A stretch of DNA of 50,003 bases from Thiovulum sp. ES (GTDB lineage Bacteria; Campylobacterota; Campylobacteria; Campylobacterales; Thiovulaceae). The first letter of the stretch is position 1. Each line of letters starts with the position of its first letter. Under the pieces are notes generated by a model. That model was not told where the DNA came from and did not search any database. It worked only from the letters and a program-made list of their open reading frames with translations. The stretch is from assembly GCA_000276965.1 (NCBI GenBank), contig AKKQ01000009.1:1-50003 (forward strand), read 5' to 3'. Made by a program: the position numbers and the translations under genes. Shown in pieces: positions 28,511-36,269 of the stretch.

Positions 28511-31468
28511 TCAATCTTTTCCTGAATTCTCTTCGTAATGCAACTCTAGACCGCTAGATGTCATCATAAATCCTTGCAAATCAATTTTTCCATCATGTAT
28601 TTCTAAATGATGTTTTTTACAAAGAGGAACAAGATTGTGTTTGTGATTTTTAGAAAAATGTCCAATAAAACCAGCTTTTGCTAATTTTTTTCCAGAAATA
28701 TGATGAACATCATCAACAGCTTCACCACAAATAATACATTTCGTTAAATATAGATTTTTATTATAACGACTTTTTCGCTTTTTTAAAAGAAGTTCAACAT
28801 CTGAAAACTCTTCTGAAATTTTTTTACGAATGCTATTTGCTGTTTTTAAAAAAGTTTCGTCCATGTGAAGCGAACGAGCAAACTCAAGACCATAAACAGA
28901 ACTACCGCTACCAACAGCCAATTTTCTGTTAAAAATTAGTTTGTCTCTCTCTTCATCATACTCAACAGCAAGATGTAAGTTTATAACACTTTTTAAATTT
29001 TGAACCTCATCGACATCATCAAGTTGATGCAGGTGAGTTGCAAAAATAAAGAGCGATTCTTTATCAACAAGTCGTAAAATTGCACTTGAAACAATTGAGA
29101 CTCCTGAAAGTGTTTCTGTTCCATGAGAAATTTCATCTCCGAGAACAATTGAGTTTTTACCCGTTCGATTGAAAATATTTTTAAGCTCCATCATCTCAAC
29201 AGCAAAACTTGAAAGCCCTTTTGCCAAATTATCTTTTGCGACAATTCGAGTGAAAAGCGAATTAAAAAGTGAAATTCTCATCTTTTTAGCGGGAACAAAA
29301 AAACCAGCTTGAGAGAGAATAATAGCGATTCCGACACTTTTCATAAGTGAAGATTTTCCTGAACTATTTATTCCGTAAAGAAGAACACCATCAATCTGCT
29401 TCTCTTCAGTCGCATCTAAAATATCTTTATTAAAATCTTCCCAATCGGCAAAAGTCTCTTTTGAACCTAAAAAAATATCATTTGGAACATAAATTCCGTT
29501 TTCTTCCCGTTCTTCAATTAGAGGATGCCTCAAATCTTGAATTTGCAAAAAACGATCACCAAGAATCAATTCAGGTTTGCAATAGTTTCTATTTTTTGAG
29601 AGTTTTCCAGTTGAAACTGCAACATCAATTTTTGAGAGAAACTCAACAATTTTTTCAAGAATTAGAGTGTGATTTTTCTCAATTTCAACTAATCTTGTTC
29701 GGAATTCCTCTTTTACAAGTGAAATCAATTTTGTTTTTGAACTTGATATTTTTTCAGAAATTTGATCGATGAGGTCAGAAGTGATTTTTACACTATTCGA
29801 GAGTTTTTTAACTTTAAAATCTCTAAAAAAATGCTCTTCATTTCCAAGAATAATTTTTTCATCAAGAAACTCATTTTCAATCAAATTAAATCGATTTCGA
29901 GTAAGTGAAATATAGTGTCCCTCTTTTTCAAGAACTCCGAGAGAAACCATATCTTTTTCACTTCGGTTTGCTTTTCCCTCTAAAAGTTTATAAATTTTTT
30001 CAACAATAAAATTGAGAGAAGAGAAGTAGCCTTCAATATCTTTTTCGACTCGATCAATTTCTCGACTAACTCCACTCAAAAAGATGTTTTCAGCAATTTG
30101 ATCAAAATTATATTTTGCACATTTTTCCAAATCAAAATTCTTTTCAATTTCATCAGTCAAGCTTTCAATTTCAGTTTCGGAAAAATTGAAATTTGCAATC
30201 AGGTTTTTTTTGACAATTTTGACAATTTCATCAGTTGAATTTAGAGAAGATTGAAGATAAGCGATTTCCATTGGATGAAGTTTTTGTAATTTTATCCGCC
30301 GACTAATCCGCTCTAAATCGTAGATTTTTTTTAGAAAAGAGTCAATTTCTGTCAAGTGTGGATTTACTCTATCTACTAAATTGAATCTTTCATCAAGAAT
30401 ATTTTTATCAAAAATTGGATTTAAAAGTCGTGTTTTTAATAGTCGTTTTCCCATCGCAGTTGAAGTGTTGTCGATGAGGTTCAAAACAGTTCTTTCGCCT
30501 AAGTTTGAATAAACTCCAAGTTGCTCAATCGCATTGTTTCCAAGATATAAATAATTTCGATTTTCAAGAAGTTTTGGACGATTTATCTTTTCAATTATTT
30601 TGTAATCGTGTTGGTAAATAAACTCGATGAGAATTGCAAGTGATTCTGAAGCAAGTGGAACTCGTTCTAAATTCAACTCTTCAATTGGAGAGAGAAAAGA
30701 GTCTGTTTGAAAAATCTTTTGAAAGAGTTGATTTTGAAATTCAACTTTTATCTTTTTTGAATGAACTGAAAAGTGATAATTTCGTTTCACTTCTAAGTAT
30801 TCTAAGATTTTATGTTGATTTACAAACTTGCTTGAAAAGTTGAGAACAATCTCGGAAGTTTTGTAAATATGTAAAAGGTTAAAAACCTCATCAAGTGCAA
30901 AATTTGGATCTTCTGCTGTTCCATAAATTTCAGAAACATATGAAATTCCTGTTGAAACATCAATTGCCGAATATCCAATTGAGTAGATATTTTGATGAAC
31001 ATCAACTGTTAAAGCGATAATGAAATTTTCCGAACTATCTGCGATATAGTCAAAGTTTGTCCCTGGGGAAATGACTTGATGTAAATATCGTGTAATTTTG
31101 GGGGGTTCGCCTTTCTGCCGAATCAGAACAATCGTATATTTCTTTTCCTGAATCAGTCGATTTAAATGTCTCTCAAAAGCAACTGTTGGAACTCCTGCCA
31201 TAAATGGATTTTTTATAGAACTTGGATTTGGATCGCTCTTGTTTTTTCTAGTCAGTTGAATATTCAACATCTCCGCAACTTCTTTTGCTTTTCCAAGTTT
31301 TATATGTTCGCTATCAACTCCATAAATCTCAAAAAAACTCCCAAGCTCTAAAAAAATTAAAACATTTTCACCATGTTTCTCTTCAAAAACCTCTTGCAAC
31401 TCAAAATATGTATCAGTTAAAAGTCTTTTCTTATCCGCCAATTTTCTATTTATCTGCTCTGTTGTCAT
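28511..31468 (-). CDS. mutS: DNA mismatch repair ATPase MutS with C-terminal HNH nuclease (MutS7-like)
   Basis: About 985 residues. The N-terminal mismatch-recognition region (FLELGSFFEIYG, a variant of the FYE motif), the core and clamp, the ABC ATPase with Walker A GINSSGKSS (about residues 698-706), Walker B IVLGDEISHGTE and the H-loop FIFATHLHQLDD are visible. The last about 80 residues form an HNH/zinc module: CIICG, VHHISG, HNLVPLCKKHHLEIHDG. This fusion is known from octocoral mitochondrial MutS (MutS7) and relatives in Campylobacterota and giant viruses, proposed to join recognition and nicking in one protein. I choose ATG 31468 (MTTEQINRKLADKK). The open frame reaches ATG 31552, but those 28 residues read through a GC-rich palindrome. 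Confidence 0.93.
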   Translation of the reverse strand: MTTEQINRKLADKKRLLTDTYFELQEVFEEKHGENVLIFLELGSFFEIYGVDSEHIKLGKAKEVAEMLNIQLTRKNKSDPNPSSIKNPFMAGVPTVAFERHLNRLIQEKKYTIVLIRQKGEPPKITRYLHQVISPGTNFDYIADSSENFIIALTVDVHQNIYSIGYSAIDVSTGISYVSEIYGTAEDPNFALDEVFNLLHIYKTSEIVLNFSSKFVNQHKILEYLEVKRNYHFSVHSKKIKVEFQNQLFQKIFQTDSFLSPIEELNLERVPLASESLAILIEFIYQHDYKIIEKINRPKLLENRNYLYLGNNAIEQLGVYSNLGERTVLNLIDNTSTAMGKRLLKTRLLNPIFDKNILDERFNLVDRVNPHLTEIDSFLKKIYDLERISRRIKLQKLHPMEIAYLQSSLNSTDEIVKIVKKNLIANFNFSETEIESLTDEIEKNFDLEKCAKYNFDQIAENIFLSGVSREIDRVEKDIEGYFSSLNFIVEKIYKLLEGKANRSEKDMVSLGVLEKEGHYISLTRNRFNLIENEFLDEKIILGNEEHFFRDFKVKKLSNSVKITSDLIDQISEKISSSKTKLISLVKEEFRTRLVEIEKNHTLILEKIVEFLSKIDVAVSTGKLSKNRNYCKPELILGDRFLQIQDLRHPLIEEREENGIYVPNDIFLGSKETFADWEDFNKDILDATEEKQIDGVLLYGINSSGKSSLMKSVGIAIILSQAGFFVPAKKMRISLFNSLFTRIVAKDNLAKGLSSFAVEMMELKNIFNRTGKNSIVLGDEISHGTETLSGVSIVSSAILRLVDKESLFIFATHLHQLDDVDEVQNLKSVINLHLAVEYDEERDKLIFNRKLAVGSGSSVYGLEFARSLHMDETFLKTANSIRKKISEEFSDVELLLKKRKSRYNKNLYLTKCIICGEAVDDVHHISGKKLAKAGFIGHFSKNHKHNLVPLCKKHHLEIHDGKIDLQGFMMTSSGLELHYEENSGKD

Positions 31469-31477
31469 CAATAATTT

Positions 31478-31517
31478 GCGACGGAGACCTCGCCATTTAT
31501 GGCGGGGAGGAAGTCGC
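31478..31517. repeat. GC-rich palindrome at the mutS 5' end, resembling an IS200/IS605 end hairpin
   Basis: An imperfect inverted repeat (GCGAC ... GTCGC) with a perfect core CGCCAT-TT-ATGGCG (31491-31504), conspicuously GC-rich for this genome. On the minus strand it reads CTTCCTCCCCGCCATAAATGG, the type of stem seen at right ends of IS200/IS605 elements (recall of family pattern, not a search). It lies between a possible RBS (AAAGGAG near 31520) and the mutS ATG. Confidence 0.55.
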
Positions 31518-31793
31518 CTCTCCTTTTTTTGACATTTAGATAATGTTTGCATTTAATAAAAATTGAAAACTATGATTTTAACCCAAAAAAATAGACTAAA
31601 GCTTAGCTCTAAAAAATTTGAAATTATTAAGCAATTATATTTCTATTCTGCAAGATTATACAATGTTGATCTTTACAGTGTTCGGCAATATTATTTTAAT
31701 AATAACAATATTTACCTGTAGAATTTGATCATAAAATTATTAATTTAAATCGTAGTATTATGCTTTAAAAAAATTTTAGGATCAGGATTTACA

Positions 31794-34700
31794 TTGGTGA
31801 TAACTGAAAAAATACAAAAAATTCTTAAACGAGGATATTTAAAAGAGAAGTTAATTGAAGAACAATTTAGAAATTTTGAAAGTTCATTAGAAATTTTAAA
31901 AAGTTCTCTAAAAAATGAAGAGACTGAAGAATTCAACAAAAATCTTGTTTCTGAATTTTTGAAAAGTTTTAAATATGAGACAAATACAAAAGGTAGAGTA
32001 GATTTAGCAATTTACAAAAATGAGATTCCAGAAGTTCTAGTTGAATTTAAATCTTTAAAAAATATTGTTGAAATGCCGACAAAAGAGAACTTTAACAAAA
32101 AAGCAATTCACGAATTAGTTCTTTATTATTTGAGAGAGAAAATCAAGTTTAAAAATCTCAATGTCAGAAACCTCATCGTTACAAATGGAGTTGAGTGGTT
32201 TGTAATTGATGCAGTTGAATTTGAAAAAATTGCAAAACCTTTTGAAAGACTTTACATAGATTTTGAAATAGATAAAAAATTAGGAATTACAAAGAATGAT
32301 GATTTTTACAAAATTATTTCTCAAAAAATAGATTTAGAAAATTTAAAAGTTGTTCATTTCTCTTTAAACGAAGAACATGATTCTAAAGATTTACAAAACA
32401 TTTATAAGTTACTTTCACCTGAACATCTTTTAAAAGAGTTTGGTCGGGAAGATGCAAACTCTTTAAATCGTGATTTTTATCTTGAGCTTCTCTATATTTT
32501 AGGACTTGAAGAGACTGGTGGAAAGAAAAAACTTATTACCCGAAAAAAGAGACAGAGTCGGGGTTCTATTTTAGAAATTACAATTTTGAAGTTAGAAACA
32601 GAATTTAAGATTTTTGACAAAGAGAGACTTTTTGAAATTGCATTAGAGTTAAATATAACTTGGTTGAATAGAATTCTCTTTTTAAAACTTCTTGAGGGAC
32701 GACTTGTAAGTATTAGGGATTTTCCAAAATTTTTGACTCCAGAAACTATTAATAATTTTGGAAAGTTGAACACTCTATTTTTCGAGGTTTTAGCATTTAA
32801 AGAGGAGGAGAGATTTTCATTTAAGGAAATTCCATATTTGAATAGTTCGCTTTTTGAGACAACAGAACTTGAAAGAAAATATTTAAGAATCTCAAATCTA
32901 AATGATGATTTGGAAATAAAATCATTTCGAGGAAAAGAGAAAATTGGAACTTTAAAATATCTATTGAATTTTCTCAATTCTTACAATTTTGGTGATGATA
33001 ATTCTGAATTTAAAAAGAGAGATTTAATAAATAGTGCCGTTTTAGGATTGATTTTTGAGAAGTTAAACGGATACAAAGATGGTAGCTTTTTCACTCCTGC
33101 ATTTGTAACAATGTATATGACTCGGGAGACAATTCAGAAAAGAGTTGTTGAAAGATTCAATTCACATTTTAATTGGAACTGCAAGAATTTAGAAGAAATT
33201 TACAATCAAAATTACAAAATTCCTGAAGCAAATGAGATTTTAAATTCAATTACAATTGTTGATCCAGCAGTTGGAAGTGGGCATTTTCTGGTTTCAGCAC
33301 TGAATGAGTTGATTTATATCAAATCCAAATTAGGGGTTTTGGCAGACGAAAATGGAAAACGGTTAAAAAATATTTCAGTTGATATTGAAAATGATGAACT
33401 ATATATTCTTGATGAAGATGGTGAAGAGTTTCGTTATTTTGTGAAAAATGGAAAGGTTGCCGATGAGGTCAAGAGAATTCAGAAAACAATTTTCCGTGAA
33501 AAATTACAGATAATTGAGAATCAGCTTTTTGGAGTTGATATAAATAGGAACTCTGTAAATATTGCTCGTTTGCGACTTTGGACTGAACTTTTAAAAGAGA
33601 GTTACTACGAAAATGAGAAACTTGTAACACTTCCAAATATCGATATAAATGTGAAAGTCGGAAACTCCCTTATCTCAAAATATGATTTAGATACAAAATT
33701 AGAAATTGGAAATTACAAAGAGATTGTCAATTCTTACAAAAGTGGAAAAGCTCAAAAAAAGGAAATTGAGAATTTGCAAAATGAGTTTCGTTCAGAGTTG
33801 AGAAATTTGCTGTCTGAAACTTTAGAGTTAAAAAAGCTTTTAAAAGAGTATGTTTCAAATTATGGAATTAAGGAATTGAACAAAGATTTAGTTTGGGAAG
33901 TTGTCCAATTTATGGAGAATTTGAGAGGAAACGAGCTTTTAAAGATGTTTTCAGAAGATGAAATTGAAGAGAAACGAAAGCAGGATTTAAAACCGATTTT
34001 AGAGTTACAAGAGAAGATTGAGTTTATTGAACATGGTGAAATGTATCGGAATGCTTTTGAGTGGAGATTTGAGTTTCCAGAGAGTTTAAATGAGAGTGGT
34101 GATTTTATCGGTTTTGATGTTGTGATTGGAAATCCACCTTATGGAATTAAGCCGACAAAAGATGAAAAAACTCTATTTTTGGAAAAATATATAAGTGCAA
34201 AAACGGACAAAAAATTCAAAGGTTCGGTAGATAGCTATTCGCTTTTTATTGAAAGAGGTTTGAAAATTTCAAAAGGGTATGTGAATTTTATTGTTCCTCT
34301 CGCTGTAACAAGTAGCGATTCCGTTTCTCAACTTCACAACTTGATTTATCAAAATTGTGAAAAAATGAAAGTCTCAAGTTATTCAAACCGTCCGACCAAA
34401 GTTTTTGACGAAGCAGACCAACGAGTTGCAATTTTAGAAGTTCAGAATAATAAAAAAAATACAAAAGAGATTTTGACAACAACTCTAAATATGCGAAAAG
34501 CTGAAACAGAGGGAAAAGTGATGATGAAAAATCTCAGTTTTGTTGAATCTTCTCAATTCCGAAAATATGGACGAATTCCAAAAGTTGGTGAAGAGATTGA
34601 GATAGATATTTTGACAAAACTTTTTGGATTACCAAAAACTCTAAAAGATTACTATTTAGAAAATGGAGAGCCTGTTTTCTATCGAACTTCTGGAGGTAGA

Positions 34701-35111
34701 TATTTCCATGTAATTACAAACTTTTCAACTGGTTCAAGTGCTGAAAATAGTATTAAAGTATCTTTAACATATAGAGATTTAGTAGGAGCAATTTTAAGTA
34801 GCTCTCTCTATTATTGGTTTTACTCTGTCTATTCTGATCATTTAAATCAAAAAACTTCCGACCTAGCAGATTTTCCTGTTGATTTAGAGACTTTTTCAGA
34901 AAATCAAATTTCAGAGATTTCAGAAATCTATAAAAAATATATGGTTGAACTTCAAGAAAATAGTTATGTTGAGGGTGGATTTCGAAGATATATCGCAAGA
35001 AAATCTAAACCTCTTCTTGACCAAATAGATTTGGCAATCTATAAAAACTTTGGTTTAAGTAGCGATGAGGTCAATTTTTTGATAAATTTCAGCAAAGAAT
35101 TCAGAGTTTAA
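31794..35111 (+). CDS. Type IIG-like restriction-modification enzyme (nuclease + N6-adenine methylase + specificity)
   Basis: 1105 residues. Residues about 65-85 carry a PD-(D/E)xK-like nuclease core (VDLAIY ... VEFKS). The methylase part has FFTPAFVTMYMTRE (motif X), VDPAVGSGHFL (motif I, about 489), LFGVDINRNSVNIARLRLW, and catalytic GNPPYGI (motif IV, about 779). The C-terminal 280 residues should hold target recognition. It would cut unmethylated DNA and modify adenine; the recognition site is unknown. Start is TTG 31794 or GTG 31797, with CAGGA upstream. The flanking 240 bases between this gene and mutS hold both promoters but nothing else recognisable. Carries exact 10-mer words at 33461 and 35063. 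Confidence 0.88.
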   Translation: MVITEKIQKILKRGYLKEKLIEEQFRNFESSLEILKSSLKNEETEEFNKNLVSEFLKSFKYETNTKGRVDLAIYKNEIPEVLVEFKSLKNIVEMPTKENFNKKAIHELVLYYLREKIKFKNLNVRNLIVTNGVEWFVIDAVEFEKIAKPFERLYIDFEIDKKLGITKNDDFYKIISQKIDLENLKVVHFSLNEEHDSKDLQNIYKLLSPEHLLKEFGREDANSLNRDFYLELLYILGLEETGGKKKLITRKKRQSRGSILEITILKLETEFKIFDKERLFEIALELNITWLNRILFLKLLEGRLVSIRDFPKFLTPETINNFGKLNTLFFEVLAFKEEERFSFKEIPYLNSSLFETTELERKYLRISNLNDDLEIKSFRGKEKIGTLKYLLNFLNSYNFGDDNSEFKKRDLINSAVLGLIFEKLNGYKDGSFFTPAFVTMYMTRETIQKRVVERFNSHFNWNCKNLEEIYNQNYKIPEANEILNSITIVDPAVGSGHFLVSALNELIYIKSKLGVLADENGKRLKNISVDIENDELYILDEDGEEFRYFVKNGKVADEVKRIQKTIFREKLQIIENQLFGVDINRNSVNIARLRLWTELLKESYYENEKLVTLPNIDINVKVGNSLISKYDLDTKLEIGNYKEIVNSYKSGKAQKKEIENLQNEFRSELRNLLSETLELKKLLKEYVSNYGIKELNKDLVWEVVQFMENLRGNELLKMFSEDEIEEKRKQDLKPILELQEKIEFIEHGEMYRNAFEWRFEFPESLNESGDFIGFDVVIGNPPYGIKPTKDEKTLFLEKYISAKTDKKFKGSVDSYSLFIERGLKISKGYVNFIVPLAVTSSDSVSQLHNLIYQNCEKMKVSSYSNRPTKVFDEADQRVAILEVQNNKKNTKEILTTTLNMRKAETEGKVMMKNLSFVESSQFRKYGRIPKVGEEIEIDILTKLFGLPKTLKDYYLENGEPVFYRTSGGRYFHVITNFSTGSSAENSIKVSLTYRDLVGAILSSSLYYWFYSVYSDHLNQKTSDLADFPVDLETFSENQISEISEIYKKYMVELQENSYVEGGFRRYIARKSKPLLDQIDLAIYKNFGLSSDEVNFLINFSKEFRV

Positions 35112-35276: not shown

Positions 35277-36269
35277 TTGAATCTAAATAATCCACAACTT
35301 TTATATCCCCGTCTTTCGCCTCTTTTAAAATGGGCGGGAGGTAAAGAGCGAGAGCTGAAATATATTTTGCCAGAAATTCCAGAATTCAAAAGATATTTTG
35401 AACCATTTGTTGGTGGCGGAGCTGTATATTTTGCAGTAAATTCTAGTCAATATTTTTTAAATGACAAATCGCATGAACTAATTGAGCTTTATAAAAGTGT
35501 TAAAACAAGTGATAAATTTTTTTTCGATGAGGTCTCAAAAATTTCTGAAAATTGGAAAAATATTGAAAATAGAATTTCTGAAAATAGAGATGATTTTTTA
35601 GCAAAATATAAAAGTGGCTTCTCATTTCCTGAAATTTCTAAAAAAATAGAACGAGTGAGAAAACTTGAATTAAAAAATGGGGAACTTGTTGAAAAAGATA
35701 TTTTAGATAACATCGAGTCTGCATTTAAAGCAAAGTATTACACAGAATTAAGAGGTCTCTATAATTCAAATCCAACTCCTGCAATCTTCTTTTTTATTCG
35801 CAATTTCGCATATAGCGGAATGTTTCGTTATAACAAAGATGGAGAATTCAATGTTCCATATGGTGGAATTGGATACAACAAAAAAGATTTAAGAAATAAA
35901 TTAGAGTATTTTAAAGATGAAAAACTTTTAGAACATTTGGCAAAAACAGAAATTGAAAATTTAGATTTTGAAGATTTTTTTCAAAAATGGAAACCAGAAA
36001 AAGATGATTTTATCTTTCTTGATCCTCCATACGATTCTGAATTTAGCACTTATGCAAAAAATGAATTTATCCAAAACGATCATGTTCGACTTCGAGATTT
36101 TTTAGCAAAAACTTCAGCAAAATGGCTCATGGTAATTTCAGAAACAGAATTTATTTCAGAGCTTTATAAAGATTTCCATATTTCTGATTTTAAAAAGGAG
36201 TATCAAGTTAGTTTTAAAAATCGGAACAATAAAAAAGCAAATCATCTAATTATTAAAAATTATGTTTGA
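35277..36269 (+). CDS. Dam-family (D12 class) N6-adenine DNA methyltransferase
   Basis: 330 residues. Family landmarks: LKWAGGKERELKYILP (motif X, about residues 16-31), FEPFVGGGAVYF (motif I), FLNDKSHELIELY, FFIRNFAYSGMFRYNKDG, and catalytic DPPYDSEF (about 249). Methylates adenine, probably in GATC or a related short site; the target is not proven. It follows the type IIG-like gene by 165 bases in the same direction and could protect DNA for the same or another specificity. Start is TTG 35277 with AAAGAGA upstream. Carries an exact 10-mer word at 35525. Compared with Dam (about 278 residues) it has an insertion of about 50 residues at 75-130. Confidence 0.9.
   Translation: MNLNNPQLLYPRLSPLLKWAGGKERELKYILPEIPEFKRYFEPFVGGGAVYFAVNSSQYFLNDKSHELIELYKSVKTSDKFFFDEVSKISENWKNIENRISENRDDFLAKYKSGFSFPEISKKIERVRKLELKNGELVEKDILDNIESAFKAKYYTELRGLYNSNPTPAIFFFIRNFAYSGMFRYNKDGEFNVPYGGIGYNKKDLRNKLEYFKDEKLLEHLAKTEIENLDFEDFFQKWKPEKDDFIFLDPPYDSEFSTYAKNEFIQNDHVRLRDFLAKTSAKWLMVISETEFISELYKDFHISDFKKEYQVSFKNRNNKKANHLIIKNYV

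Follow-up and report, generated by a model that had tools for sequence, protein, structure and literature searches.

A MutS7-type protein with a C-terminal HNH domain in Thiovulum sp. ES and its candidate role in mismatch repair without MutL

The region considered here, referred to as the window, comprises 50,003 nucleotides of contig AKKQ01000009.1 of Thiovulum sp. ES, a member of the Campylobacterota whose genome as analyzed contains 2.08 Mb in 206 contigs and is 96.7% complete. It encodes a MutS protein with a C-terminal HNH nuclease domain, next to genes for a type IIG restriction enzyme-methyltransferase and a Dam-family adenine methyltransferase (Table 1). A preliminary description, made from the nucleotide sequence, had assigned the MutS protein to the MutS7 type and pointed to the segments CIICG, VHHISG and HNLVPLCKKHH; all three are present in the translated frame, and the assignment is borne out by Pfam domains, a 24-sequence alignment and a model of the HNH domain, an agreement far beyond chance. 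The family itself is known: a 2011 paper (PMC3166940) already described the MutS7 architecture in epsilonproteobacteria and proposed that the protein is self-contained. The window protein adds a new member to it.

The open frame is uninterrupted over 28511..31552 and would encode 1013 residues, beginning 28 codons upstream of the start at 31468. The latter is the likely start, because the 28 additional residues fall on a 59-bp palindromic repeat that is present elsewhere in the genome and the alignments to the four nearest relatives begin at residue 1 of the shorter protein. Copies of the repeat at 98-100% identity lie on two other contigs, five further contigs have matches that are shorter or weaker, and no transposase was seen by eye at the two other copies. 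A search of 40 genomes, including that of Thiovulum, found mutS7 in 27, as one near-full-length match in 25 and in pieces in two; the remainder of the 32 matches were weak matches to other MutS ATPases. Full-length copies share 69-77% identity with the window protein inside the family and 43-55% in the wider order.

Table 1. Features of the mutS7 locus in the window and related frames on other contigs (aa, amino acids).
Feature	Location	Strand	Remarks
mutS7 coding sequence	28511..31468	-	985 aa; coordinates include the stop codon
HNH nuclease core, C911 to H958	28595..28738	-	Alignment, Pfam, structure searches, model
Linker motif SRYN	28760..28771	-	Immediately precedes the HNH domain; all 24 aligned sequences have S and Y
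MutS domain V ATPase	28817..29383	-	Walker A GINSSGKS; LGDEISHGTET
MutS domain III and clamp region	29612..30535	-	Pfam, MutS1 alignment, model
Connector (domain II), diverged	30617..31027	-	Below Pfam cut-off; aligned to MutS1; model secondary structure fits
MutS domain I, mismatch recognition	31052..31375	-	Pfam; invariant F45-x-E47
59-bp palindromic repeat	31468..31526		Abuts the mutS7 start codon
Type IIG restriction enzyme-methyltransferase	31794..35111	+	Divergent neighbour of mutS7
Dam-family adenine methyltransferase	35277..36269	+	Homologue directly upstream of mutS7 in G001
MutS7 with HNH motif, IMG/VR 3300013795_000128	L169:11708-14275		855 aa; contig called as phage
MutS7, IMG/VR 3300028534_000511	L197:4928-7810		960 aa; 54.6-kb contig
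MutS-like ATPase frames, family f10	G013:C25:24018-26059		
MutS-like ATPase frame, family f10	G032:C64:25415-25864		

Three MutS domains of the window protein were detected well over the Pfam cut-offs, MutS_I (E 3.9e-11), MutS_III (E 1.5e-25) and MutS_V (E 7e-43); MutS_II remained below its cut-off (20.4 vs 25 bits), and neither domain II nor domain IV gave a match over the cut-off in this protein. Residues F45 and E47, which we take to be the equivalent of the Phe-x-Glu of MutS1, show no variation among the 24 aligned sequences (window included), and neither do the Walker A motif and D778-E779. MutS7 proteins are described in PMC3166940 as lacking domains II and IV, whereas a profile alignment of the window protein to seven MutS1 proteins extends from residue 30 to 884 (772 columns, 24% identity) and includes both the connector and the clamp regions. 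The published absence of these domains may reflect weak detection, because the MutS1 alignment spans both and the secondary structure of an AlphaFold2 model built from the 24 sequences (mean pLDDT 81, pTM 0.58) fits a connector and a clamp. MutS_II is over the cut-off in the MutS7 of the phage contig described below, as is MutS_IV in that of genome G315. The arrangement of the domains in the model is not to be trusted, and its comparison with E. coli MutS gave a TM-score of 0.46 by model length and an rmsd of 18.6. A conserved Q-N-E-L-F segment was considered as a beta-clamp motif and set aside; it lies in a predicted helix and varies in the deep branches. Shorter MutS7 proteins of ~920 residues, with several small deletions spread through the protein, were observed in families f13 and f16 (L022, L023 and L024).

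The HNH residues C911, C914, H922, H923, N945, C950, H953, H954 and H958 do not vary among the 24 aligned sequences, which were chosen by hand, include the window protein and were not picked by HNH pattern; in a 50-row alignment the invariance is partly by construction, the rows having been picked by that pattern. Pfam DUF968 matched the C-terminus barely above its cut-off (E 1.9e-6; 28.5 vs 27.8 bits), and this model detects the HNH domain of MutS7 weakly, with matches in 72 genomes, 11 of them over the cut-off, in a survey of 298 genomes of the window's order (sampled from the phylum at a completeness of 90% or more). By sequence, the solved structures nearest to the HNH part are IscB chains (best E 5.6e-6, next 0.0069). 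Modelled alone, this part reached a pLDDT of 85.5, and a fold search with the model gave no significant match (best E 0.097), the non-significant top matches being McrA, IscB and an HNH nicking enzyme. The best match extends to query residue 977 at least, that is, through the HNH domain, in 90 of the 92 surveyed genomes with MutS7, the exceptions being G054 and G308. The SRYN linker occurs also in the giant-virus proteins L170 and L175, with SVWN or SLWN in L171, L173 and L174. The motif is common to Campylobacterota and two giant-virus proteins, and the sequence evidence therefore favors a single ancestral fusion of HNH and MutS. Family f17 (L009, L033, L034, L037, L038 and others) carries a tail after the HNH domain that ends in LDDW or LDDWDF and resembles acidic SSB-type tips.

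To place the protein, a tree of 45 proteins was constructed with the HNH columns removed (quick IQ-TREE run, SH-aLRT without bootstrap, two MutS2 proteins as root). The window protein falls with its own family on the MutS7 side (SH-aLRT 94). Besides 25 proteins of Campylobacterota, this side holds three short paralogues, two proteins of phage- or plasmid-like contigs and six of giant-virus contigs; L170 and L171 are labelled giant-virus for the RPB2-like genes read by eye in them, and the remaining four for their closeness. The MutS7 side stands opposite seven MutS1 (SH-aLRT 99) and two MutS2 proteins; IQ-TREE flagged uneven letter make-up and the meeting of the long MutS1 and MutS2 branches. 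Matches to viral structures were led by giant-virus MutS proteins (E 3.3e-71 to 8.2e-61), the fourth of which is named MutS subfamily 7, while solved MutS1 structures reached 1.2e-48, a rough comparison since the libraries differ. The phylogeny that the preliminary description had proposed as a check thus groups the window protein, HNH left out, with Campylobacterota, phage-borne and giant-virus MutS7. The outcome that it had named against its own reading, a MutS1 that acquired an HNH domain independently, did not occur. NCBIfam MutS models do match the protein, but its mutS1 score of 297.7 bits is far below the cut-off of 641.7 (mutS2, 121.7 against 400 bits), the HNH-free tree separates the two groups, and the SRYN linker is common to two giant-virus proteins; we regard independent gain by a MutS1 as ruled out by the tree for all practical purposes. 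The window protein gave no Pfam match to an Smr or a GIY-YIG domain. Among the best 80 of 356 matches in a contig scan for relatives, 77 titles name Campylobacterota and three only 'bacterium', a result uninformative on rarer hosts.

Two MutS7 genes lie on IMG/VR contigs. That on 3300013795_000128 neighbors portal, tail tube, head-tail adaptor and SbcC/D genes, a gene set from which the contig is called a T4-like tailed phage; its protein is matched by a PHROG HNH model (E 6.4e-4) and by no Pfam HNH model. Contig 3300028534_000511 carries RecA-, DNA polymerase III alpha- and gyrase-like genes (read by eye) and a Rep3 initiator (Pfam), and is classed by these genes as phage- or plasmid-like. 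In the tree the two MutS7 proteins form a pair that splits off after three f5/f22 proteins and ahead of the remaining Campylobacterota (forks 83 and 96), and they would lie among bacterial proteins if the root is right. No MutS7 was recognized in the best 20 of 26 records from an annotated phage collection or in the best 20 of 45 from a plasmid collection, because their identities of 22-27% are at the level expected of MutS1 and other MutS proteins, and a viral scan queried with the phage MutS7 returned its own contig alone. Judged from the annotated phage matches listed, phage carriage of MutS7 is rare or poorly sampled. In genus g53 (L078, L079 and L080, from G152, G235 and G195, respectively) a second MutS7 frame of 652-678 residues lacks domain I; the tails of L078 and L079 lack VHHI, and the L080 frame ends before the HNH domain. 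This short paralogue adjoins a dapE-like gene (read by eye) and is possibly a heterodimer partner.

The preliminary description had seen no mutL in the window and had suggested a protein that needs neither MutL nor MutH. The first observation holds and extends to the Thiovulum genome, where a search found no mutL (no MutL_C match at 96.7% completeness; control matched in 11 of 14) and where the two MutS_V matches are the window MutS7 and a MutS2. Across the survey, MutL was over the cut-off in none of the 298 genomes of the order, with the control over the cut-off in 11 of 14. Weak matches to the MutL model TIGR00585 in 89 of the 298 genomes were rejected as MutL; all are below the cut-off and are read as other ATPases of that fold, and those listed cover profile positions 2-81, except in G238, G133, G013 and G262 (~310-464). 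Epsilonproteobacteria are stated in PMC2147049 to lack parts of MutSLH, and A. butzleri to have no MutL or MutH. The MutS7 architecture, the grouping in the tree and the lack of a MutL match in the genome support the preliminary reading of the protein. MutL is absent, however, with or without MutS7 (206 of the 298 genomes have no MutS7), and its absence is therefore not specific evidence for a self-contained protein.

In total, MutS7 was present in 92 of the 298 genomes after 25 of 117 matches had been dropped as weak cross-matches to other MutS ATPases, most of them as long as a MutS2. In 2007, A. butzleri, S. denitrificans and W. succinogenes were reported to have no hypervariable G:C tracts, which suggested working mismatch repair, and MutS2 was proposed as the nicking MutS of that repair (PMC2147049). 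We found G10 tracts in 16 of the 92 genomes with MutS7 and in 187 of the 206 without it, with median counts of overlapping matches of 0 vs 22. MutS2 was rejected as the explanation of tract absence: it is over the cut-off in 295 of the 298 genomes and therefore cannot explain the split. Families f11 (101 genomes), f14 (89) and f15 (2) have no MutS7 in any of the 192 genomes sampled, and the association is therefore largely a matter of lineage and may reflect few events. G10 tracts are missing from 19 of the 206 genomes that lack MutS7 (11 belong to f11), and G186 (f14) has a count of only 2.

A within-family comparison used f6, f9 and f21, families in which some genomes have MutS7 (43) and others lack it (13). 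The density of G8 tracts is higher without MutS7 (stratified permutation p 0.0008, second run 0.0012; genus level p 0.0014). A composition control, G/C-rich but not homopolymeric, also rises without MutS7 (p 0.049). The tract-to-control ratio reaches only marginal significance (p 0.051), f6 showing no effect, and the genomes that lack MutS7 are smaller (p 0.00005). G10 tracts occur in 8 of 43 genomes with MutS7 vs 6 of 13 without (Fisher p 0.067), and the within-family result is unchanged when the five broken copies in these families are left out. These comparisons are suggestive of MutS7 presence going with few long G tracts, lineage being a confounder; with the same confounding, they favor MutS7 over MutS2 for the idea advanced in 2007 for A. 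butzleri. Broken or internally deleted MutS7 genes were found in six of the 92 genomes (G054, G225, G253, G255, G281 and G308), at different places, and all six genomes are free of G10 tracts, which is not what one would simply expect, except where the breaks are recent or arose in assembly; the six are possibly mutators or assembly errors. Genomes of family f10 that gave no strong MutS7 match contain MutS-like ATPase frames of ~505-519 residues, two of them in tandem in G013. The G10 split, the carriage by the phage and Rep3 contigs and the short HNH-degraded paralogue are new in this analysis.

A single chain combines a Phe-x-Glu recognition domain, an intact ABC-type ATPase and an HNH domain with all core residues. 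We consider it probable, judging from sequence comparison, that the window protein is a mismatch-repair MutS7 that finds errors and cuts near them with its own HNH domain, without MutL or MutH. A dimer would detect mismatches and slipped loops, ATP would change its shape, and the HNH domain would cut the DNA near the error; general exonucleases, a helicase and a polymerase could then complete the repair without MutL or MutH, and Campylobacterota with the gene would rely mainly on MutS7 to repair replication errors. If MutS7 does cut at mismatches, one protein would perform the job of MutS, MutL and MutH in a large bacterial group that yielded no MutL. Only tentatively do we extend this to a wider proposal: that MutS7 is the sole replication-error repair of Campylobacterota and works without MutL, that its loss, and not that of MutS2, allowed hypervariable poly-G tracts to accumulate in Campylobacter- and Helicobacter-like families, and that phages and plasmid-like elements spread the gene. 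Such movement, if true, would represent a bacterial virus route for the spread of MutS7.

Several other functions can be considered. The two HNH domains of a dimer might produce a mismatch-triggered double-strand break followed by recombinational repair, a scheme in which no strand choice is needed and that problem disappears; we judge this unlikely, though deserving of attention. A dimer would bring the two nuclease domains, but HNH domains like that of IscB cut one strand, and no obvious recombination gene was seen by eye beside mutS7 in the surroundings of three family members. Precedents do exist, since there is some evidence from 2025 for breaks and templated repair by plant MSH1, a GIY-YIG protein (PMC12225983), and NucS makes double-strand breaks at mismatches in vitro (PMC11551767). 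Anti-recombination or heteroduplex rejection in place of replication repair appears improbable. MutS2 is thought to suppress recombination (PMC3200294), and one genus has the degraded short paralogue; however, MutS2 is already over the cut-off in 295 of the 298 genomes, MutS7 retains domain I with Phe-x-Glu, and the tract distribution, if it holds, indicates slippage repair.

The neighborhood of mutS7 raises the further reading that, in the Thiovulum genome, the nuclease might serve restriction-modification or defence, as restriction-modification genes adjoin mutS7 both in the window and in two more members of the family. We give this very little credence. Homologues of seven neighbor proteins were found at three of 134 mutS7 loci (the window, G001 and G002), a count over flanks no longer than 1.5 or 3.5 kb, which would miss more distant or unrelated restriction-modification genes; the two such genes of the window have no homologue in 19 kb around G004, and no PADLOC model matches the window protein. 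A functional link to restriction-modification was rejected as a general feature on the same short-flank count. A Dam gene was observed directly upstream of mutS7 in L201:8228-11920, and an MvaI/BcnI-like nuclease and a C5 methylase adjoin it in L203:2993-4718.

The mismatch-repair MutS7 proposed here can be compared with known systems. The MutS7 proteins of epsilonproteobacteria and nucleocytoviruses have, like the window protein, domains I, III and V and a C-terminal HNH (PMC3166940, PMC3175470). Octocoral mitochondrial mtMutS has the same architecture and HHNH residues by published description (PMC3166940) and differs in being mitochondrion-encoded; the octocoral link is taken from print (PMC3166940, PMC8438181, PMC12292046). 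Plant MSH1 follows the same logic of a MutS fused to a C-terminal nuclease, but its nuclease belongs to another family, GIY-YIG, and a published tree has MSH1 and MutS7 as separate groups (PMC12292046). The MutS1/MutL/MutH system has recognition and ATPase domains in common with the window protein, whose nuclease, in contrast, is on the same chain and in whose genome MutL was not found. MutS2-Smr likewise combines a MutS ATPase with a C-terminal nuclease domain. MutS2 has no domain I and carries Smr, and it is present separately in the Thiovulum genome, on contig C4.
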